Positions 41,963 to 53,655 of a stretch of DNA of 64,000 nt are shown piece after piece. Where the stretch lies: positions 434,001-498,000 of the forward strand of contig NC_014002.1 in the NCBI RefSeq assembly GCF_000025865.1, given 5' to 3'. The DNA comes from Methanohalophilus mahii DSM 5219 (lineage in GTDB: Archaea; Halobacteriota; Methanosarcinia; Methanosarcinales; Methanosarcinaceae). Each line of letters begins with the position of its first letter. Positions within the stretch are counted from its first letter, which is position 1. A program made the translations under genes and the position numbers. The notes beneath the pieces were generated by a model. It did not search any database, was not told where the DNA came from, and worked only from the letters and a program-made list of their open reading frames with translations.

Positions 41963-42079
41963 CATTTTTGCGCAACATTAATATCTATGTGTGCCCATGT
42001 AAGACCACTTTCCAAACACCCGTACGATCAAGTACAGGTTGTAGATACGGAAATCTGTGCAAGACTTTTCAATCTCTTT

Positions 42080-42164
42080 GCGGGGGTTGCCCAGCCAGGC
42101 CAAAGGCGCAGGGCTTAGGACCCTGTCTTGTAGAAGTTCGTGGGTTCGAATCCCACTCCCCGCA
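42080..42164 (+). tRNA. tRNA-Leu (anticodon TAG)
   Basis: 85 nt class II tRNA: acceptor GCGGGGG/TCCCCGC, anticodon stem CAGGG/CCCTG with loop CTTAGGA, long variable arm, T loop GTTCGAAT. Discriminator A. A nine-T run (42169-42177) follows at once as a terminator. The AT-rich accessory region begins just after it. Confidence 0.95.
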
Positions 42165-42268
42165 TCTGTTTTTTTTTGGGATATAGGTATCTCTGAAAAA
42201 CAGAACTGCGTAAAAAAACAAACAACTTCTAAATAATATATAATGAAGAATAACTTTAAAATAAAATA

Positions 42269-42619
42269 TTAAAGTTGTTCGACATTGCATCTATAATTAT
42301 AATCAACTCCACTTTCTCCATCAAGAGTGAATTCAATATTTCTTTTTTCCCCAGGTTGCAAAGTAATTGTTTTGCTAAGAGAATCTCTGATTTCGTCAGT
42401 ATTAGATATTAGATTAGCAGTTACTCTTGCATTGTGTGAACTACTACCTTCATTCTTAACCCAAACATCAATATCATAAACTACACCTTTGGAAAAATCA
42501 AAAGAACTTGTTCCTTTTGTTTGCACAATTACAACTTCATTATCAAACCCAGTACATCCTATAGCTAAAAGAGCTATAAAAATAATTAATACACTACAAA
42601 TTTTAAACATAAATCGCAT
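42269..42619 (-). CDS. small lipoprotein with a CARDB-like beta-sandwich domain
   Basis: 116 aa from ATG 42619, with AGGAAG at correct spacing. A signal helix ends in the lipobox LAIGC, so it is lipid-anchored on the outer face. The rest (VVYDIDVWVKNEGSSSHNAR, LQPGEKRNIEFTLDG) follows the pattern of CARDB/FxLD-like immunoglobulin folds used as cell-surface modules. Function unknown. Confidence 0.7.
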   Translation of the reverse strand: MRFMFKICSVLIIFIALLAIGCTGFDNEVVIVQTKGTSSFDFSKGVVYDIDVWVKNEGSSSHNARVTANLISNTDEIRDSLSKTITLQPGEKRNIEFTLDGESGVDYNYRCNVEQL

Positions 42620-42860
42620 ATACAAACTTCCTATATTTAATATTTTTAAATTTAATTTTGTAGAGTTTTTATTTATATTTAAACATATCTATTTAACTTA
42701 AATTATGACAGATAGTATATTGAAAATAATTATTAACAATCAATTAATAAATTTAATATAATATATTTAATATAAATTGTTTATGAGTTTAAGATTTAAA
42801 TTTTAATTAATTTAAAATATGCTAATTATAAGTAATATTAATAAATATTTTGTAGTACAA

Positions 42861-43792
42861 TCACTCTTTATAATTGACAATGCTTCTTAAACAATGTATT
42901 AGTGGCTCTGTAGAAATCCTCATTTGAATAATTATTGAAGCAGAGATAACCCTTTCTATATTATGAATTAATAATTTGCACTTGACTTCTTTGACCTGAT
43001 TTCTGTATTTTGTTGCCCTCAGTTCTTCCCTATACTTCCTTTTCAAAACAGAAAACATTGTCTCTACCAGGTTTCTATAATGGTAGCTGCATCAAATTCA
43101 TCTCTCATTTTACGACGGTATTTTCCTTTGATTCTTTTCCTTTTTCTACATCTTACAGGTATGATGGCTTCTGCTTTCAATTCTTCATTGATTAGAGCAT
43201 GTATCTTCTCAGAATCATATCCTTTATCCATCAGATAACAATCAGATTTTCTCCTTTTGTGACATTGTCTCAGCAATATCAATGCATGCTTTGCATCATG
43301 TACAGGTTTACCTGAAATCTTAAAACCATTTACAATGAAATTCTCAACGTCAACAGCTATACTTGTTTTCAGATACGATCGTCTTTTCTTTCCTGTTCTC
43401 ACAGAATAATAGTAACTACAATGTCCTCCTGTAAATCCACTTGAATCAATAGCAACCAGAGGTATTCTTTCACCATGTGAATAGAAGAGTTTCAGAGTTT
43501 GGTGAAGTAAACTATTGAAATAGAATGAAGATATTCTATTGGTAAATTTATGTAATGTTGTGAAATGAGGCAAGCGATTTATACCAATTTTGGATTGAAC
43601 TCCTTCCATTAAATCAACAAGTTTAACAAATTTTCTGAAATTTTCATTTATGTAATCTTTGAACAATACCAATGTCAGTAACTGATGTTGAGTATATTTT
43701 CGTTTGGAATACTTGCAACTGTAAATGGGAAGATGGGATCTTCCAGCTACAGACATAGCTGTATCGATAAAGTTTAAGTAATCGCTTGACAA
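42861..43792 (-). pseudogene. IS4/IS5-superfamily DDE transposase, frameshifted
   Basis: First segment (43792-43064, TTG start behind GGGGAT) contains LVAIDSSGFTGGHCSYYYS (first Asp) and YLMDKGYDSEKIH (second Asp). It stops just as another frame takes over at 43075 with YHYRNLVETMFSVLKRKYRE, holding the catalytic Glu of the Y-R-E signature. One missing base near 43080 explains the break. The second frame then runs through the left inverted repeat and stops outside the element at 42861. Programmed frameshifting is possible, but no slippery run is evident. Confidence 0.8.
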
Positions 43793-43903
43793 AACACATT
43801 CATCCCCATTGTGTTTTTTATGGCGAAAATCACATTGGGGACCTCTTCTTATAAAAATAATAATGTATTAGTGGAAGTTAGAGGAAAGGGTTTCTACAGA
43901 GCC
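42904..43903. mobile_element. 1000-bp insertion sequence with 16-bp inverted ends
   Basis: Left end GGCTCTGTAGAAATCC (42904-42919) and right end GGGTTTCTACAGAGCC (43888-43903) match as inverted repeats at 15 of 16 positions. They enclose the broken DDE transposase. No clear target-site duplication flanks it. The 13-mer AATGTATTAGTGG occurs across the left edge (42893-42905) and again inside the right end (43862-43874). Confidence 0.8.
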
Positions 43904-44175
43904 GGAAAATAAAGCTGTAGTAGGTATCTGGCCAGAAGAAATTCAGGGTGATGTGATGTGGGATAATAATTTGCATTTAGATATTTACTGACAGTAAATC
44001 ATTGAGAACATCTCAAAAATTACCTATCTAAATTTGACCGACGTTTATTGAATCCAAAAAATTTCATATAATAGTGACAAAAAGTACTAATAAAACAATT
44101 ATTGATACTTTTCACTATTTTAATGTTAATCAAATTATGAAAACAATTTTTGAGATATACATCTATGTTCAAATT

Positions 44176-45354
44176 TTATTCAGGATTATAAACCATGGAT
44201 AATTCATATTCAACATCTTTATAAGACTCACTTGCATCTATAATGGCACCATATCCCGGTTCTATTTCAATTTCTCTGTCAAAATATTGTATATCATTTT
44301 TTGATATGACACTGCTTGATTGGATATTCTGACGATTTAAGAAATCATCATATTTTTCTTCATCTGAAACTATGTAAAAATCTACATCATCACTACTTTG
44401 TAATTTGATATTCACATTTGTATCAAATTCCAATCCAAGACTTTTATCATATATATTGTAATATTGTGTATATCCGTTAGGCAATGTGTCCTCGTAAGTA
44501 GAATCAAAACTTGCAAAAACAGCAGTTATGTAACATGCAGTTTCTTTTCCATCGTCTACAGATTCATCTGTCGCAACAACACCGATTCCTACATGGTCCC
44601 ACAAAATTGGTTTATCCGTATCTAAAACCGGAATTCTGTGGCCTGGGCTTTCTATCCAACCCTGTACAGTTTCATCAGCAATATCGGTAGTTCTATTCAC
44701 AGGTAAATACATAAGGTTCTCTGTTGCAGAAAAATAGAATATTTCATTTTCTTTAAGAATGTCTCCAACTCCATAGCCATCAGGTGTAGTGTGAGAAAAA
44801 TATCCTCTTTGAACCATGTCTTTACTTCTACTTTCTGCAATATCGTCCAGGATTTCACTTCTTTCAAGTGGTGTTATATCCAGATATTTTCTTTCTTCAT
44901 TGATTAATTGGAAAATGCTATCCTCAGCTGAATCTGTTATTACATCTTCTGCACTATAAGAGATGTCAGCTAATCGACTTTCGGGCACGGTGAAATCTAT
45001 AGCATTATATTCAAAGTCGCTTTCAAAGAAGTCGTAGTAAAAAACAAAACTGTCACCTTCATAATTGCCTTTTAAGGAGATTTCTCCTGGATATAATTCA
45101 TCTTTTGGTGCATTTAATATCCCATTTTCAGTAGTTCCAAGGAATTTATCGTCGATGTAAACATTACCGTTTAAATTCTCTCCGGTTTCTTCAACATAAA
45201 AATTAAATTCCATTGAATTAGATTGTAAACAACCAGCTGAGGTAATTGCAATTATAAATCCAATCAATATGAATACATTAAAAGCTCTATTTTCAAATTT
45301 ATTTTTTAATAAATCTTCTTTGTTCAAGGAAATCAACTCTTGATAATATTTCAT
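44176..45354 (-). CDS. CAP/SCP-domain lipoprotein
   Basis: 392 aa from ATG 45354; the frame extends 16 codons further upstream without a better start. A hydrophobic segment ends ITSAGC, a lipobox, preceded by a longer than usual charged N-terminus. A beta-rich region (~60-140) precedes a CAP domain (~155-290: FQLINEERKYLDITPLERS, SKDMVQRGYFSHTTPDGY, ATENLMYL, VQGWIESPGHR, HVGIGVVATD) with the usual His/Glu cavity residues. A ~100-residue tail follows. Surface-exposed; function unknown. AT-rich, like its neighbours. Confidence 0.82.
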   Translation of the reverse strand: MKYYQELISLNKEDLLKNKFENRAFNVFILIGFIIAITSAGCLQSNSMEFNFYVEETGENLNGNVYIDDKFLGTTENGILNAPKDELYPGEISLKGNYEGDSFVFYYDFFESDFEYNAIDFTVPESRLADISYSAEDVITDSAEDSIFQLINEERKYLDITPLERSEILDDIAESRSKDMVQRGYFSHTTPDGYGVGDILKENEIFYFSATENLMYLPVNRTTDIADETVQGWIESPGHRIPVLDTDKPILWDHVGIGVVATDESVDDGKETACYITAVFASFDSTYEDTLPNGYTQYYNIYDKSLGLEFDTNVNIKLQSSDDVDFYIVSDEEKYDDFLNRQNIQSSSVISKNDIQYFDREIEIEPGYGAIIDASESYKDVEYELSMVYNPE

Positions 45355-45487
45355 GTATACATTATATAAAATTTTATTCAATTGTCCCAATTTAACTATC
45401 AACTTGAATGAATAAAAATTTAATATTTATTAGAATATAATATCATAAAAACAAAACAAATTTATATTATATTTCTTTAGTATTACT

Positions 45488-45901
45488 ATGAATGATTCAA
45501 ATAACAATTTAAATAGTACATCTATACCCCTTTGGAAATTTATATTACTTTCTTTAATCACATTTGGTATTTATGAAATATATTGGATGTACAAACAGTG
45601 GAAATTTTTAAAATTAAAAGATGATCTGAATATATCTCCTTTTTGGAGGTCTATTCTTGCAATTATTTTCCTTCATGAATTACTTGAAAGGATAGCAACT
45701 TTAGCAGATAATGTTGGATATGAAAAAGCAAGTTCTACGAAAATGAATACTTTTCGTTTTGTTTTTTGGTTCCTAACCGCTTCAATAAATAAATTCCAAA
45801 TACCTTTACCGTTTGGATTAATAACTTATCTTCATTTTTTGGCCCTTATAAATGCAGTCCAATCAATAAATTTCTATTGGAAAATAAATGATACGTTTTG
45901 A
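45488..45901 (+). CDS. DUF4234-like integral membrane protein
   Basis: 137 aa with three or four TM helices. The N-terminal signature IPLWKFILLSLITFGIYEIYWMYKQWKFLK is that of DUF4234-type proteins (split here: LLSLITFGIYEIYWMYKQ). Function unknown. High AT content fits the accessory region. Confidence 0.72.
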   Translation: MNDSNNNLNSTSIPLWKFILLSLITFGIYEIYWMYKQWKFLKLKDDLNISPFWRSILAIIFLHELLERIATLADNVGYEKASSTKMNTFRFVFWFLTASINKFQIPLPFGLITYLHFLALINAVQSINFYWKINDTF

Positions 45902-46142
45902 TACATTTAAATAATCTACAATGACATCGTGATGTAATTTTCCACTTCCTCTCTCCAATGCAACATAATATATATTTTGTTGCGTTTTCAGGAAAAAGTA
46001 AATTCATCAATTTCCTATTTTCGCTATCATTAAATGGCATAGACGTTTTCTTTACATAACAAACACAACATTTATATACAGTTGTTGTATTTTATACAGT
46101 AGGAAATATAATAAACAGTGGCTACGACAAGATGAATTAGAA

Positions 46143-46676
46143 TTGATGTTGAATAATCCCAATATTTCTGAAAAATATGAAATATGGATTCTTTTGATGT
46201 ACACTCCTGCATTAAGAGTAACCGAGGCCATCAATATCAGAGTTAAAGATATTGACTTGGAAGATGAATGTATTGATATCTGGGGTGGCAAGGGTCGTGA
46301 TGTTACCGAATTGCAGAAAGCTCCCTGCAATATTCGGGTCTTGAAACGAATAAAGCGATTCTGTGAACATTCGGATCTTCGACCAACGGGTTACATTATG
46401 TATTCCCAGAAGTCCAAACAAGTGAATCGTTCCCATGTATATAAAGTCTTCAATGACATATGCAGTGAATCTGGAATTAACAAGACAATTGGAACACATA
46501 CAATGCGACGTTCCAGGGCAGAACATTTGTTGGATAAAGGATTACCATTGACATTTGTTAGTAAATACCTGCGGTACAAGAATTTGTCAACTACAATGAA
46601 GTATCTGGATGTTTCAGTAGCTGATATTCAGCGGGAAATGGAAATGATTGATGATTGCGTTAATGCATTGGTTTGA
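46143..46676 (+). CDS. tyrosine recombinase/integrase, catalytic domain only
   Basis: 177 aa. Active-site residues can be placed: Arg in TPALRVTEAINIRV, Lys in WGGKGRD, H-x-x-R in THTMRRSRAEHLL, and Tyr in TTMKYLDVSV. The N-terminal SAM-like DNA-binding domain is absent. The frame stays open and protein-like for ~25 codons upstream (RKYNKQWLRQDELEL) but has no ATG/GTG/TTG, and a TATA box (TTTATATAC, ~46070) is close, so the start at TTG 46143/ATG 46146 is a guess. It may be a truncated integrase or one of the short archaeal XerA-like forms. Confidence 0.75.
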   Translation: MMLNNPNISEKYEIWILLMYTPALRVTEAINIRVKDIDLEDECIDIWGGKGRDVTELQKAPCNIRVLKRIKRFCEHSDLRPTGYIMYSQKSKQVNRSHVYKVFNDICSESGINKTIGTHTMRRSRAEHLLDKGLPLTFVSKYLRYKNLSTTMKYLDVSVADIQREMEMIDDCVNALV

Positions 46677-46679
46677 TAT

Positions 46680-46977
46680 GGTTGTATATACACCAACCAA
46701 TAACATTCAATCTTAATTATGATAATTTGTTATGAGTTCAATCGCTGTATTTTCTATTGTTAATGATATTTTCCATTCCATGTAGAATTAATGTATTAGA
46801 ACATATACACTAAATTATTTTTGTATATTTAAATTATAGAAAAGCGTCTCATTTAGTTTTTATTTTAATTAATAAATATATTTAAAGCGGTATTTTTTAA
46901 TATTAAAGGTTTGTATCTATTTTTAGAATTTAAAACAGATGCCTGGGCTTACATTGCATACCAAATGGAGAATTATA
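46680..46977. other. AT-rich promoter region of the surface-protein operon
   Basis: About 300 bases. Several TATA-like stretches (e.g. AATATATTTAAAG around 46875-46888). No gene seen before the 36-codon ORF. Confidence 0.4.
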
Positions 46978-47088
46978 ATGATTAAAAAAATAGTAACTTC
47001 AGTAATACTATTTTTGCTGCTAATAGGATTAACTTCTGGATACCAAAATGATACTTCTATAAATGTAACTAACGGAGGAAAACAATGA
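46978..47088 (+). CDS. 36-residue secreted peptide upstream of, and overlapping, the S-layer fusion gene
   Basis: ATG with TGGAG eight bases before it. The product is almost entirely a signal peptide: a KK dipeptide, a hydrophobic core IVTSVILFLLLIGLTS, then an Asn/Thr-rich tail of ~15 residues with two possible N-glycosylation sequons (NDT, NVT). Its stop (TGA) overlaps the ATG of the next gene, and its last codons form that gene's ribosome site (GGAGG). It may act as a coupling/leader ORF, a secreted peptide, or the remnant of a longer surface gene. Confidence 0.5.
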   Translation: MIKKIVTSVILFLLLIGLTSGYQNDTSINVTNGGKQ

Positions 47089-49922
47089 AAAGATTAACAG
47101 TAATTTTAATGGCTGCCCTAATGGTCTTAATAGTATTTTCTGGCGTAGCAAGCGCAGCAGATTCTGTTGAAGTCCGTGGGGAAGCTGCAGTAGATACAGC
47201 ATCTTTCACATGGGATGCAGACAACTTTGCAGGTTTCTGGTATGATGTCGACAACGGTGTCTTCTCTGAAACTATGGACATTACTAGAGATGCTTCCCCT
47301 TCAAGAAACATTGATGACGGCAACTTGGTATATACAGCAACTGTTCAACCAGAATCCACAGAATTTGACTTTGCAGGTGAAACAACTACCACTGGAGCAT
47401 TTACCAATTATCCAATCGGTAAAATCGGCCTTTTTGCAAGTGAATACTATGTGGTTGGAGATGGCCAACTATCCGAAGTCCTAATGGACACCGATGTCAG
47501 TTACACAATGCGAACCGGTGAGACTCTTGAGCTCGCTGAAGGCTATGCAATCACACCACAGCAGATCAATGTTAACGATGGAAAAGTATGGCTTGAACTT
47601 ACCAAAGACGGTCAATTCCTTGATGGCAAGGTAATTGATGTCTCCGGTGACAACACTGCTTGGATCTACGAACAGGACGTAATGAATGAAGAAGATGTAG
47701 TTACATTGCAGATCAACATCGATCAGGTTTTCCAGGGACAGGTTGATAGCCTTTGTATTGTTGAGGGCATCTTCCAAATATCTGACACCGGGCTTCACAT
47801 CGAAAAATATGATACTTTTGGTAAACTCATTGTAACAACTGTGGACTCTACCCAGATTGTAATGGAGAATGAAAATAGCTTCAATGTACCAAAGGATGGT
47901 ACAACAGAAATCTCTGAAGATTTCTACCTGCGTGGAAACGACAATGTAGGTGCTCCACCAAATGATATCTGGTATCTTGCAACTGAATATACTGAACCCG
48001 GTACATACGAAGTCCGTGGAGAAGCTGCAGTAGATGCATCATCTTTCACATGGGATGCAGACAACTTTGCAGGTTTCTGGTATGACCTTGATGAAGATGA
48101 TTCATCTGAAACAATGGAAATCAATGTAACTGATGACAAAGATATCCTCGAAGGTGATTTGGTTTACACTGCAACTGCAGTAGATGATCAGACCACTGAA
48201 TTTGGATTTACTGAAAGCTCTACAAGTGCTACAGGATTTACCTACACGAAACTCGGACTTTTTGCCGAGGAATATTTCGTAGTTAATGATGCAATTGACA
48301 CCCTTTCCAAGATTCTCATGGATGATGACAGTAGTTACACCATGAGGACCGGTGAGACACTGGAACTCGAGGAAGGTTACGCAATCACACCACAGCAGAT
48401 CGATGTTGACGGAAACAAGGTCTGGCTTGAACTCACCAAAGATGGTGAATTCGTAGATGACAAGATAATCTCTACCTCAGGTGATGCTACACAGGCAAAC
48501 AAGACCTGGTTCTATGAACAGGATATTGAAGACCAGGAAGATGTTGCAACCATAATGGTCCATGTTGATGAAGTGTTCCAAGGACAGGTTGACAGTCTCT
48601 GTTCCATCGAAGGTGTATTCCAGATTTCTGATGAAGCAATGGTAGTTCAAACAGATGATGAATTCGGTGAACTTGAAGTAACAAGCATCGGTACTGATTC
48701 AATCGAAATGGCAAACATGGATGACCTTGATGTTCCAGATGATGGTGTCCTTGACATCACAGATGAACTAATGGTCAGAGGAAACGATGGTGCAACACTC
48801 TGGTATCTCTTCACTGAGAGAACAATTGGAGGCGAAGAACCAGTTGAACCAGTTGAACCAGAAGAAAGAACCACAAGTATTGGTTATGTTATGTGGGACG
48901 GTGAAATTGCCAGTACCAACGTAATGAAAGAGGTCCTTGAACAGGCCGGTTACGAAGTAGAAATAATCGCTGTTGATGCAGGCCCACTTTACCAGGGACT
49001 TGCAGACGGCCAGTTTGACTTTACAACATCTGCGTGGCTTCCACAAACCCAGGCAAATTACTGGGAGCAGTATGGAGACCAGGTTGACAGAGTTGCAGTA
49101 AATCTTGAAGATTGCAAACTCGGCCTTGCAGTACCAACCTACATGGAAGACATTAATTCCATCGAAGACCTGAATGCAAACAAGGAGAAGTTCAATGGAA
49201 AGATCACCGGTATTGACCCCGGTGCAGGTATAATGCAGAACACAGAAGATGCAATCGATATGTATAATCTGGATTACGACCTTGAAGCCAGCAGCAGTGC
49301 TGGAATGGCATCAGCCCTTGATGGTGCTTACAGGGACGAACAACCAATCGTTGTCACCCTCTGGACACCTCACTGGGCATTCGACAGATATGACCTGAAG
49401 ATGCTGGATGATCCACAGCAGGCCTATGGAGAAGCTGACCACGTAGAAACCCTTGCCAGACAGGGACTCGAGGATGATAAACCCGAACTCTACGCAATCA
49501 TAAACAGGTTCAACTGGACCCATAATGAGATTCAAACCGTAATGGCTGATATGGAAGCAGGAATGAGTGCTGAAGATGCCGCTGCAAATTGGGTTGAAAA
49601 CAATCCTGACAGAGTTAATGAATGGATTAATGGTTCGGATTCTAGTTCAGGTTCATCCGGTGGTGGAAGTGGAGCTTCATATTCCACTTATAATATGTCA
49701 CTCCAAAAGGGTTGGAACCTTGTGTCAATCCCAATAATTCCAGAATCATCGGTATTGTCAACTTTTGAAAATACAAGTGATGTGTTATTGCCGGTTTATT
49801 CTTGGAATACTGAAAATAAACAGTATTATGAAGTTGAACACCTTGAAATTGGTAGGGGATATTGGGTTCTTGCATTAAATGATACTGAAGTCAATGTTGA
49901 AGGAGCAACATATTATCCTTGA
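47085..49922 (+). CDS. S-layer DUF1608 tandem domains fused to an OpuAC-type glycine-betaine-binding domain
   Basis: 945 aa. A signal peptide (1-24, ending SGVASA) is followed by two tandem Methanosarcinales S-layer DUF1608 domains (~28-303 and ~306-583), each opening with VRGEAAVD...SFTWDADNFAGFWYD and each having an MRTGETLEL...GYAITPQQI segment. After an EPVEPVEPEE linker comes a complete ABC-type betaine-binding domain (~595-848): GYVMWDGEIASTNVM, FTTSAWLPQTQANYWEQYG, GIDPGAGIM, LWTPHWAFDRYDLKML, FNWTHNEIQTVMADM. It keeps the Trp residues that form the aromatic cage for trimethylammonium ligands. A Gly/Ser linker (~849-866) leads to a final ~75-residue GWNLVSIP-type domain. There is no C-terminal TM helix or sorting signal. 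GGAGG precedes the ATG. The two S-layer halves are also similar at DNA level, 840 bases apart, so they arose by duplication. Confidence 0.93.
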   Translation: MKRLTVILMAALMVLIVFSGVASAADSVEVRGEAAVDTASFTWDADNFAGFWYDVDNGVFSETMDITRDASPSRNIDDGNLVYTATVQPESTEFDFAGETTTTGAFTNYPIGKIGLFASEYYVVGDGQLSEVLMDTDVSYTMRTGETLELAEGYAITPQQINVNDGKVWLELTKDGQFLDGKVIDVSGDNTAWIYEQDVMNEEDVVTLQINIDQVFQGQVDSLCIVEGIFQISDTGLHIEKYDTFGKLIVTTVDSTQIVMENENSFNVPKDGTTEISEDFYLRGNDNVGAPPNDIWYLATEYTEPGTYEVRGEAAVDASSFTWDADNFAGFWYDLDEDDSSETMEINVTDDKDILEGDLVYTATAVDDQTTEFGFTESSTSATGFTYTKLGLFAEEYFVVNDAIDTLSKILMDDDSSYTMRTGETLELEEGYAITPQQIDVDGNKVWLELTKDGEFVDDKIISTSGDATQANKTWFYEQDIEDQEDVATIMVHVDEVFQGQVDSLCSIEGVFQISDEAMVVQTDDEFGELEVTSIGTDSIEMANMDDLDVPDDGVLDITDELMVRGNDGATLWYLFTERTIGGEEPVEPVEPEERTTSIGYVMWDGEIASTNVMKEVLEQAGYEVEIIAVDAGPLYQGLADGQFDFTTSAWLPQTQANYWEQYGDQVDRVAVNLEDCKLGLAVPTYMEDINSIEDLNANKEKFNGKITGIDPGAGIMQNTEDAIDMYNLDYDLEASSSAGMASALDGAYRDEQPIVVTLWTPHWAFDRYDLKMLDDPQQAYGEADHVETLARQGLEDDKPELYAIINRFNWTHNEIQTVMADMEAGMSAEDAAANWVENNPDRVNEWINGSDSSSGSSGGGSGASYSTYNMSLQKGWNLVSIPIIPESSVLSTFENTSDVLLPVYSWNTENKQYYEVEHLEIGRGYWVLALNDTEVNVEGATYYP

Positions 49923-49935
49923 AGGATGTGTTAAT

Positions 49936-51168
49936 TTGCAAAAAGTATCATTTTTAGCATTTGTTCTATTACTGGTAATTGGAACATTATCTGTTGTTTC
50001 AGCAGATACCAATGACTCATGGGAAGTGAAATTATATTTCACCTCTCTTTCAAGTTCCTCTGGTAATACTTCACCTCCTCCTGCACCAGCAACTTATGAG
50101 CGTATATTTGGCATAAATTCAACTGCAATAGATGGCTTCGACAGAGATATCGATAAACCAGCTCCACCTGAACCACAAGGTGATGCATTGGATGTTTATT
50201 TTCCATGTGAACATGAAGTTGTAACTCGTCTTGCAACGGACATAAAAAGCAATGATACAGATAAATGGAAATTAAATATTGTAATGCCTTCTCAATCAAT
50301 TACCCATCTTAGATGGGATAATACTTCACTTCCTGCAGATGAAGATTTCATAATTATTGTGGATGGCTCAGAAACTGATATGCAATCTAAAGATATGATT
50401 GAATTGACAAGTGGTGCAAATGAGATTACTGTTCATATGGGAGACATACCGACTTCGACCAAGCCCTCTGATCCTCCGGGCGGAGGCAGTGGAGGGGGCG
50501 GTGGTGGAGCCACAGGTGAAGAGTTTGAAAACATCGCCTCCAAGCATGCACAGGTGAGCAAGGTGGCTGCCGGTGAAAATGTACGTTATGAGTTCAGTGA
50601 AGATGATATTGATTTAATGACCATCCAGTTTACAAGCCTTTCCAATGAGGGTCAAACCAAAACATCAGTTGAAGTCCTCAAAGATACCTCAGCATTGGTG
50701 GATTCTTCTGCACCAGGGAAAGTCTATCAGAATCTGAATATCTGGGTTGGCAATGTCGCCTTTAATGAAGATGATATGGAGATTCCTGTAGTTGGATTCA
50801 GGGTAAGTAAAGAATGGATTTCTGATAATGATGTAGAATCTTCTTCAGTTGTACTTTGCCGGTATAATGATGGAGAATGGACTCAGCTTCCAACCGAAGT
50901 TATAGATGAAAATGAGAATTACTTCATTTATGAGTCCGAAACGCCTGGATTTTCACCCTTTGCAATATCTGCAATTTATGAAGAGGAGGAATCTTCTGAA
51001 GATACTATTTCTTCGTCTGAAGAAAAATATGATGATTTTGTGGAAGAAGAGGAAGTTGTTGAAAATGATTCAAATACCCCGGACTCAAATGCAACACCTG
51101 GATTCAGTATTCTCTTGAGTATGGGAGTTCTGTTACTGATGGCCATGATTTTCAGAAAGAAGGGTTGA
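49936..51168 (+). CDS. PGF-pre-PGF domain surface protein with PGF-CTERM anchor
   Basis: 410 aa, TTG start at 49936, 13 bases after the fusion gene, with AAGGATG upstream. A signal peptide ends near VVSA. An N-terminal domain (~25-165) with FGINSTAIDGFDRDIDKPAP is common in archaeal surface proteins. A Gly-rich linker (~175-190) follows, then a PGF-pre-PGF domain (~195-355) with PGKVYQNLNIWVGN, FRVSKEWI and TPGFSPFAI. An acidic stalk (~356-388) leads to the PGF-CTERM signal, PGFSILLS, a hydrophobic helix and RKKG, which archaeosortase would process to lipid-anchor the protein. It is the only member of the operon with a clear membrane anchor. Confidence 0.9.
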   Translation: MQKVSFLAFVLLLVIGTLSVVSADTNDSWEVKLYFTSLSSSSGNTSPPPAPATYERIFGINSTAIDGFDRDIDKPAPPEPQGDALDVYFPCEHEVVTRLATDIKSNDTDKWKLNIVMPSQSITHLRWDNTSLPADEDFIIIVDGSETDMQSKDMIELTSGANEITVHMGDIPTSTKPSDPPGGGSGGGGGGATGEEFENIASKHAQVSKVAAGENVRYEFSEDDIDLMTIQFTSLSNEGQTKTSVEVLKDTSALVDSSAPGKVYQNLNIWVGNVAFNEDDMEIPVVGFRVSKEWISDNDVESSSVVLCRYNDGEWTQLPTEVIDENENYFIYESETPGFSPFAISAIYEEEESSEDTISSSEEKYDDFVEEEEVVENDSNTPDSNATPGFSILLSMGVLLLMAMIFRKKG

Positions 51169-51414
51169 AGATTCAATCCTTTTCTCTATTTTGTAAGGAC
51201 GAGTTGAATTACAGAATTTATCAGTTTGTTATCTGGATATAATATGACTGAACTTATCACAAAGATGGTTACATCTATCCAATCTGCAATAAGGAGCATA
51301 TAGTTGGCAGGTTCCCTTTTGACTTTAAGTAGTCAAATACAAAAGTTACAATAATTAATAGGATTAGGAAGAATTAGGGATCAATTTGGGTGGTTTATAA
51401 ATCTATAAACATTA

Positions 51415-51912
51415 TCATGATTCGTCCATAAGATATTCACCAAATAAATATCTTCCAGGACCAAAAGTTCCATAATTTTTTACAACAATACCAGCTTTAT
51501 TGTTTTTATCATATAAAGCAGGCTCATGTAAATAATTATTCAGTACTTCATATATCTCTTTAATTGATGGTGTATCGGTTGAAAATTCTGATGCAAAATA
51601 TGTCACTGAATTAGGAGTTCCGACCTTTCTTCCAGTAAAATCCTTGAAACATTTCACATTGTTTCTTCTTACTATGATCTTATCTACGTTATGATTCATA
51701 TCGCTATCATAGTAAATAGCATAAGAGCGTCCTCTGGTACCACGTGCAACAAGTCCACCCTTAAATTTTTCTTGAATATAATATTTACCAGTGAATAAAT
51801 CTAATAGTTGTTCTATTGTAAGACAATTTTCACACCCAAGTTTGCCAGGATCTTGAGGTATTCTTTTTATTTTATTTAGATACCAAGCAGCAGCTTCGTC
51901 AAAACAGTCCAT
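51415..51912 (-). CDS. uncharacterised protein (165 aa), partner of a PD-(D/E)XK protein
   Basis: Not recognised. It has CFDEAAAWYLNKIKRIPQ at the N-terminus, a CENC pair, and a central KYYIQEKFKGGLVARGTRG segment with a GRSYAIYYDSD strand, then a mixed alpha/beta end with GTFGPGRYLFGE. No signal peptide or TM. It is 78 bases downstream of the nuclease-like gene on the same strand, so the two probably form a cassette. Confidence 0.55.
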   Translation of the reverse strand: MDCFDEAAAWYLNKIKRIPQDPGKLGCENCLTIEQLLDLFTGKYYIQEKFKGGLVARGTRGRSYAIYYDSDMNHNVDKIIVRRNNVKCFKDFTGRKVGTPNSVTYFASEFSTDTPSIKEIYEVLNNYLHEPALYDKNNKAGIVVKNYGTFGPGRYLFGEYLMDES

Positions 51913-51990
51913 TCTTACCCACTCCTTTTGTACTAATTCAATTATAGATATTTCAAGTTATACTCAACCCAAAAGATGGTAGAACTCCTT

Positions 51991-53112
51991 TTATCCAATT
52001 AATTTATTCAGTTTCTCTAATAAATAATTAGTAGAAACATCATTTTCTATTTTCGCATTAAATGAATCCAAAACTTCCTCCAAACCCTTGTTATCGGTAT
52101 CCACATCCAATTCTCCAATCATTTCTAATATCTCGTTGAAATAGAAGTTGTTCAGCAAAACAAGTTTCAACTCAGATTCATATTTATCAATCTCTGTTGT
52201 TACATTTTCATCATGGAAAGATTCTGAATCATGTATGTGTAAGCCTTTGTCATCAAAAAATATTCCACCTGCAACAGGCCCCTCATCCATTCGTTTTTTT
52301 ATTTTTGCAAAAACTTCGTCATGGTCACTATCTACCGTCGGAAAGGAAATGAACAGTTTTTTTGCGACCTTTTCCTTTTTTGCTCTCAATAACTGGTCGA
52401 CACCTCTTGAAGGACTATTTGATAGTCCATAACGTTTTGATGATTTCACTTCAACTAAAATTAACTCATTGTTAACAGGACTGTCAAGATGTGTACTTGG
52501 TTCAGGAACTCTGTCCAACCATCTTAAACAAGCTAATTCTGATATATGACATCCTTTATCGATGAATCGAAACTTCCTCAGTTCATCTAAAGTGGGTGAT
52601 TTCCATGCGACTACATCATCTATTCCAGGTCTATCGTTGCCCTCTTTTCCATAAGTACCTAAGGGATTTTGAACAATGTAACCTTTCTCTCTAAAATAGA
52701 GCATTGATACCAGAGTACCCAATTTCTCCGTTGAAATTATATATTTATTAGGAAAGTGTACATAATTACTTGGAATGTCTGCTTGAATGCAAATTTTTGT
52801 ATCTTCAAGTCCCTCAACAAATCTATTTATTGCTGTTCTTCCAGGTTTATGAACAAATACAAAATTTTTATGCATAATTTCTTCAAAACTGTTTTTTATA
52901 TTTTCTTCGAGGGCTACCTTTGGTATTTGAGTCAATCCTAAGGAACAAAAATTTATTGCAGGATCATGCAACCCAAGTGTTTCGATAAAAAATAATTTTG
53001 TTCTATTATTGAGAAGTACAATTTTTTCCCCGTCAAAATCAAATAAGGAATTGTTTCCTAAATTATTCAAATCTTCAAATGTCTTCTTAAATGTAACTAG
53101 CTGATGTTCCAT
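51991..53112 (-). CDS. PD-(D/E)XK nuclease-like protein (373 aa)
   Basis: A run of G (GGGGG) precedes the ATG. The N-terminal ~130 residues match nothing I recognise. Residues ~135-265 follow the PD-(D/E)XK layout: LGTLVSMLYFREKGYIVQNP (helix with Glu), RPGIDDVVAWK (active-site Asp), then ELILVEVKSSKRYG (E-x-K), with a Gln-Leu helix VDQLLRAKKEKVAKK after it. The C-terminus is an acidic helical tail. No helicase or methylase domain, and no methylase gene nearby, so it is not an ordinary restriction system. A defence role is inference from domain type and genomic setting. Confidence 0.65.
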   Translation of the reverse strand: MEHQLVTFKKTFEDLNNLGNNSLFDFDGEKIVLLNNRTKLFFIETLGLHDPAINFCSLGLTQIPKVALEENIKNSFEEIMHKNFVFVHKPGRTAINRFVEGLEDTKICIQADIPSNYVHFPNKYIISTEKLGTLVSMLYFREKGYIVQNPLGTYGKEGNDRPGIDDVVAWKSPTLDELRKFRFIDKGCHISELACLRWLDRVPEPSTHLDSPVNNELILVEVKSSKRYGLSNSPSRGVDQLLRAKKEKVAKKLFISFPTVDSDHDEVFAKIKKRMDEGPVAGGIFFDDKGLHIHDSESFHDENVTTEIDKYESELKLVLLNNFYFNEILEMIGELDVDTDNKGLEEVLDSFNAKIENDVSTNYLLEKLNKLIG

Positions 53113-53273
53113 TATTAGTACCCCCCCACTACAATCTAGTAATCAATAGTCAGGTCTTAAGATATATATGTTTATCAAAGTGGTTCCTTTATCTCCATCT
53201 GAGTCGTGGAGTACCGTCGGTGATTTACATTAAAGGAAAATGTTAATCTCATTATTTGGATGCAGTTGTCAAA

Positions 53274-53548
53274 ATGTTTGAAGAATTAAAAAACAAATAT
53301 GAGGAAATTTCGTACTTAGTGTTTATAAAAAACTAGATAAACTACTTTTACCTCCTCTAGAAAAGAAAATAGTTTTTCTAATTCTTGAAAATAACGGATA
53401 TTTTCAAAATCGACTTTGGAAGTCTCTAAATATTGATAACAGAAAATGTTCTCGCAAAGTGAAATCATTAGTTGACAAAGAAATAATCTTGAGACAACCA
53501 GCTGTCAATAATGGTTCGCGTACTTATAAATTGTACATCAGAATATAA
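53274..53548 (+). pseudogene. small winged-helix DNA-binding protein gene, frameshifted in an A6 run
   Basis: ATG 53274 opens MFEELKNKYEEISYLVFIK and stops. Adding one base in the A run at 53327-53332 joins it to a second frame: KLDKLLLPPLEKKIVFLILE, then YFQNRLWKSLNIDNRKCSRKVKSLVDKEII, ending with a wing and YKLYIRI at 53548. The joined product (~91 aa) has MarR/ArsR-like winged-helix character (helix-turn-helix plus wing). The break may be a real mutation or a homopolymer read error. It is divergent from the nuclease cassette and could have been its regulator. Confidence 0.6.
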
Positions 53549-53655
53549 AGTTGTGTTATTTATTTTGTACCGAAAAGAAAGAGCCATTCTACTAATCCCA
53601 TATCTATATAAACAAGCAGCAAGTAATTTTTTTTAATAATGATAGGGGGAATTAT

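Follow-up and report, generated by a model that had tools for sequence, protein, structure and literature searches.

A Methanohalophilus mahii S-layer protein fused to a betaine-binding domain, and the neighbouring gene of a putative membrane-anchored partner

Results

The window analysed here is a 64,000-nucleotide stretch of the chromosome of the halophilic methanogen M. mahii DSM 5219, and it carries two adjacent genes, called gene A and gene B below, on a genomic island beside a tRNA-Leu gene (Table 1). Gene A is a single uninterrupted frame of 945 codons, as an initial annotation made from the sequence had stated, and the domain content read from it there was also confirmed: two stretches of S-layer (DUF1608) sequence are matched both by PF07752 (E 4.5e-146) and by TIGR01567 (E 2.3e-118); the OpuAC domain (PF04069, E 7.6e-72, residues 598-839) is full length, covering model positions 4-257 of 257; and the SAWLP, GAGIM, WTPHWAF and FNWT blocks are all found. 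Residues 306-584 match the solved S-layer protein MA0829 (3u2g, E 2.5e-61) over the whole solved construct, while residues 597-851 match the solved OpuA-type betaine-binding domains 3l6g, 7ahc and 2b4l. Candidate matches to DUF6799, DUF5881 and SBP_bac_3 scored below the Pfam cut-off and were dropped.

Table 1. Features of the gene A-gene B locus, in window coordinates
Feature	Position	Strand	Basis
tRNA-Leu	42079-42166
Species-specific island, about 11.3 kb, between tRNA-Leu and flavodoxin gene	42210-53560	.	Flank alignment, five congeners; AT-rich flanks
Phage-integrase-family recombinase, upstream of gene A	46143-46676	+	Pfam, E 9.4e-27
Gene A: S-layer x2 / OpuAC / C-terminal domain protein, 945 aa	47085-49922	+	Open-frame call, Pfam, NCBIfam, solved relatives
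Gene A signal peptide, residues ~1-25, near-match to that of main S-layer protein	47085-47159	+	Sequence, hydropathy
Gene A S-layer domain 1 (PF07752/TIGR01567), limits approximate	47163-47999	+	Two-stretch profile match
Gene A S-layer domain 2, residues ~306-584, aligned with MA0829	48000-48836	+	Pfam, NCBIfam, solved-structure match
Gene A short Glu/Pro stretch resembling S-layer stalk start	48837-48866	+	blastn against relatives
Gene A fusion point, gene nt 1777	~48861	+	blastn of gene A against relatives
Gene A OpuAC betaine-binding domain, residues 595-848; W604/W651/W760 cage, G715/I716, Q656 at His position	48867-49628	+	Pfam, solved relatives, alignment, blastn
Gene A linker, Ser/Gly-rich	49629-49688	+	Sequence
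Gene A A1 conserved C-terminal domain (YNMSLQKGWNLVSIP...VEGATYYP), proposed docking domain	49689-49919	+	Homology searches
Gene B start, TTG likely	open frame from 49879	+	Sequence
Gene B: A2 N-domain, Gly linker, PGF-pre-PGF domain, PGF-CTERM-like membrane tail	49936-51168	+	Open-frame call, NCBIfam, hydropathy
A2, conserved N-terminal domain of gene B	50020-50451	+	Homology searches
PGF-pre-PGF domain (TIGR04213) in gene B	50518-50970	+	NCBIfam, E 5.3e-54

The OpuAC domain had been taken for the end of the frame, which it is not: residues 869-945 form a further conserved domain of about 77 residues, A1. By hydropathy, the only hydrophobic stretch of the gene A protein is its signal peptide, and there is no C-terminal transmembrane (TM) tether; the main S-layer protein, encoded by a separate gene in the same genome, has a PGF tail at 632-654. 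The earlier proposal that the binding domain replaces the tether is thus right in that gene A has no membrane tether of its own, but its place is taken by the OpuAC domain and a further C-terminal domain, the latter paired with a gene for a membrane-anchored partner, so that the locus is better described as a two-gene unit. The partner, gene B, ends in a PGFSILL...FRKKG tail with a predicted TM window at residues 386-408; PF18204 is not called in it and is matched weakly in the copy of the congener G034 (E 0.0038). No Pfam match to a cohesin or dockerin domain was obtained in gene A or B. The open frames of the two genes overlap by 44 bases; a frameshift joining them was considered for this reason and rejected, because in every genome gene B encodes a signal peptide of its own and gene A stops at nearly the same position.

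The flanks of the island align with those of five congeners, with other DNA between them in each, and the insert includes an integrase-family gene and a DDE transposase gene. No copy of a tRNA-Leu-end attachment site was found in the window. Every Methanohalophilus compared has its own insert, about 1.5-11 kb long, at the spot after the tRNA-Leu gene (window 42079-53560), and this spot is likely to be an integration hot spot. Since the A-B pair of G034 occupies a different chromosomal place from that of M. mahii, the unit moves; among plasmid records, no place covering most of gene A was found. The island also encodes, at 51991-53112 on the minus strand, a 373-aa protein with no Pfam match, whose D...EVK pattern is, as an impression, reminiscent of PD-(D/E)XK nucleases.

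When gene A was compared with its relatives by blastn, S-layer homology stopped and binding-protein homology started at one nucleotide (gene nt 1777); the latter spans nt 1777-2544 and is followed by the linker and, from nt 2611, by A1 homology. Gene A is a mosaic of three pieces, and the fusion is genuine. The genome is one contig of 2,012,424 bases, in which the 401 bases spanning the junction are unique, the next-best match being a 142-base S-layer stretch of 85% identity; misassembly through repeats is unlikely because of this uniqueness, and a hidden join between two genes, the error that would have undone the original description, is not seen. The S-layer part is 88% identical to the main S-layer protein of G032 vs 75% to M. 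mahii's own (for domain 2, the amino acid figure against G032 is 88%). The fused OpuAC DNA is 94.1% identical in nucleotides to the free binding-protein gene of G034, compared with 94.5% for neighbouring core DNA, and 89-92% identical to the free genes of three other congeners. In these congeners, the free counterpart encodes the lipoprotein of the operon for betaine transport.

An alignment of the fused domain with B. subtilis OpuAC, whose pocket residues are W72, W178, W225, G26, I27 and H230, pairs W760 with W72, W604 with W178, W651 with W225, G715 with G26, I716 with I27, and Q656 with H230. The tryptophan prism of solved OpuAC and the carboxylate contacts in the L. lactis protein have been described (PMC2861598). 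Gene A thus keeps the three-tryptophan cage, the presence of cage-forming aromatic residues having been noted at first reading, along with the carboxylate-binding positions G and I, and has Gln at the His position; the three tryptophans are kept in all free relatives compared, and Gln stands at the His position in most of them. For the fused domain against the free gene of G034, dN/dS is about 0.17 (0.031/0.181), close to that of free-gene pairs, and the domain is under purifying selection. Five amino acid changes are specific to the window (K595R, E797D, E798D, D828S and K835N), none of them in the cage. Betaine binding by the fused domain is likely, because the cage is kept and dN/dS is like that of free genes.

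It had been remarked that no permease or ATPase lies nearby; this holds for the neighbours of gene A that were scanned, but M. mahii does have an OpuA-type transporter, missed at that time, at ~355-358 kb of the genome. Its permease and ATPase share 93-97% identity with their counterparts in congeners whose operon binding protein nearly matches the fused domain, and the fused domain is itself 89-94% identical to the congeners' free binding proteins. The M. mahii transporter operon holds two free binding proteins; the one encoded at the place of the congeners' free gene is of another type, 54% identical to the fused domain and 94% to that of G031, and the sole copy of the fused-domain type in M. 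mahii is the fused one. This operon binding protein (L038:9421-10317, G000:C1:355423-356316) combines a signal peptide common to congeners with a mature domain of the other type; the domain type of the operon binding protein has switched within the genus. Growth of M. mahii on glycine betaine is listed as not reported, and the genus Methanohalophilus is able to make betaine itself (PMC6491703); a catabolic role, with betaine as methanogenic substrate, is unsupported.

Of 112 Methanosarcinaceae genomes, 6 have strong A1 matches, and A2 is found in the same six and no others (E <= 0.001), with the A1 gene adjoining the A2 gene in every case. A pattern scan, covering one genome each of 84,980 species, gave the A-B order also in an ANME-2 contig and in a contig of a WOR-3-labelled bin. 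The A-B pair of the latter contig, L075 (JAGLZA010000245.1), is typically methanosarcinal and includes S-layer sequence; this contig is probably a binning contamination. All complete A proteins have S-layer sequence (PF07752), a signal peptide, no other TM segment and A1 as their last residues; they range from 808 to 2116 aa, with beta-helix and fn3 sequence, one to four S-layer stretches and, in two, OpuAC. All B proteins have a signal peptide, A2 and a C-terminal TM segment, and the PGF-pre-PGF domain is recognised by NCBIfam in the window and G034 copies.

Further afield, a profile search of the phylum for A2 added only weak, distant relatives, and a scan for A2 relatives in viral contigs found none. 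A1-like domains are common, being present in 114 of the 393 genomes of the phylum, and most of them lack an A2 partner. In other archaea, distant relatives of A2 and A1 adjoin within one polypeptide (L084, L085, L089 and L090), and in G192 an A2 gene again comes directly after the gene of an A2-A1 protein; such side-by-side placement in one chain points to an association of A1 with A2. The distribution as a whole is that expected of a docking pair, which is an indirect indication that the two may dock. Their predicted structures are both of low confidence, with a mean pLDDT of 52 (A1) and 62 (A2), and a fold search with the A2 model gave no significant match.

Long frames contain only three of the ~150 best PF04069 matches listed for the 112 Methanosarcinaceae genomes (those in the window, G034 and G073), so there are at least three OpuAC fusions, weaker matches being outside this set. 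The one other S-layer/OpuAC fusion among the matches listed, in G034 (L041:5487-11837), is a 2116-aa envelope protein with beta-helix, fn3, OpuAC, two S-layer stretches and A1; the B gene after it is 73% identical to gene B of the window. In the pocket of its OpuAC, W, W and G are replaced by K, R and S, so that two cage tryptophans and a pocket glycine are lost; this domain can hardly bind betaine, to judge from the loss of the two tryptophans. The G073 fusion (L048:7765-9651, about C1:1378765-1380651) is a 628-aa protein with a ~330-aa N-part of an unnamed family, one internal hydrophobic stretch and an intact C-terminal OpuAC; kinship to gene A beyond OpuAC was rejected, the N-part being different and the hydrophobic stretch internal. 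It resembles a betaine receptor that has a cytoplasmic part, and the gene after it has a similar N-part and a different outer part.

Discussion

A C-terminal helix is believed to tether the major DUF1608 S-layer proteins to the membrane (PMC3361143), so that sequence after the S-layer domains should face the membrane side. The initial proposal had betaine concentrated at the cell surface; this topology would put the binding domain under the canopy, rather than on the outer face. We suggest, as a reading that we regard as having an even chance of being correct, that the gene A protein is an S-layer protein docked via A1 on a membrane-anchored gene B protein, with the betaine domain held below the canopy as a reservoir or feeder. 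The two S-layer domains would put the protein in or against the S-layer, and A1 would dock on A2 of the gene B protein, whose PGF-CTERM-like tail presumably anchors its C-terminus in the membrane. The betaine domain would then occupy the space in which free binding lipoproteins operate, between membrane and S-layer, and could capture betaine as a fixed reservoir or feed it to the OpuA-type transporter encoded elsewhere. Hand-over to this transporter is plausible, and a reservoir without hand-over is equally open. Three observations weigh against this reading: A1-like domains are common and mostly unpaired with A2, the OpuAC of the G034 fusion has lost its cage, and M. mahii already has two free binding proteins in its transporter operon.

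The most serious rival, which we consider unlikely but by no means negligible, is that the OpuAC domain is passive filler without a role in betaine binding, captured by recombination into a fast-shuffling, adhesin-like S-layer family. It keeps this standing mainly because, to judge from G034, the module can persist without betaine binding: the OpuAC of this sister cassette is recognisable at full length, yet its pocket is substituted. Passengers also vary by cassette (beta-helix, fn3, extra S-layer domains), and the capture in the window is not old, so there has been little time for decay. Against this, the M. mahii domain retains every cage residue, its dN/dS is about 0.17, and none of the five window-specific changes falls in the cage.

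A betaine sensor or sink, which would regulate the envelope or the osmotic response rather than aid transport, seems improbable to us. Binding domains can serve as receptors, and no transporter gene adjoins gene A; however, no cytoplasmic signalling domain is recognised in gene A or gene B, neither of which leaves space for such a domain, and the G073 fusion, with its internal TM segment and long N-part, is the more receptor-like protein. That two genes were joined in error during assembly is barely credible: the exact architecture of gene A is seen in one genome only, but the genome is a single contig, the junction is unique, the frame is continuous across a seamless breakpoint, and the same C-terminal domain and partner gene follow in independent genomes.

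Going beyond docking of the gene A protein on its partner, we tentatively put forward a wider reading, which is possible but rather doubtful as a whole, in which A1/A2 would be an undescribed, non-cohesin docking pair of some Halobacteriota that holds exchangeable large S-layer-type proteins on a small membrane-anchored partner, and in which M. mahii would have used it to place a working betaine domain under the S-layer as a fixed importer feeder. If A1 and A2 dock, some DUF1608 methanogens would have a two-protein tether that allows exchange of whole modules, and this would be a natural counterpart of engineered S-layer display; the constant placement of an A1 end domain of this type next to the gene of a membrane-anchored partner suggests a plug-in mode by which the archaeal cell coat acquires new functions. 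Solute storage or channelling by the archaeal pseudo-periplasm could also be probed with a binding domain that is held between membrane and canopy. In any case, gene A clearly illustrates how the binding protein of a transporter has been recruited into the cell coat.

Comparison with known systems

S-layer fusions as such are already known, from ANME cytochromes; what appears new is the S-layer/solute-binding fusion and the A1/A2 pair, neither of which we found described in the part of the literature searched, and to that extent the initial impression of an undescribed architecture stands. With the major S-layer protein of Methanosarcina (MA0829 type, PF07752/DUF1608), gene A shares a signal peptide and tandem DUF1608 domains, but it has OpuAC and A1 where that protein has a C-terminal TM tether. 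The full domain, tryptophan prism and backbone pocket motif are common to gene A and OpuAC-type proteins (PF04069; L. lactis OpuA, B. subtilis OpuAC); unlike these, gene A does not encode a lipoprotein or lie beside an ABC transporter, and its binding domain is inside an S-layer protein.

The S-layer-fused cytochromes of ANME, proposed for electron transfer (PMC9012536), likewise combine a DUF1608 S-layer protein with an inbuilt functional module; they differ in having their own C-terminal TM segment, whereas gene A carries a solute-binding domain, has no such segment and is accompanied by a partner gene. Dockerin-bearing binding proteins and S-layer/dockerin proteins have also been reported in ANME, and both systems share the idea that protein docking holds ABC binding proteins at the cell surface (PMC9012536); gene A, however, is a direct covalent fusion with no dockerin or cohesin, and A1 and A2 are other sequences. 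Gene B, finally, resembles PGF-CTERM and PGF-pre-PGF surface proteins, having the TIGR04213 domain and, at its C-terminus, PGF, a TM segment and a basic tail.
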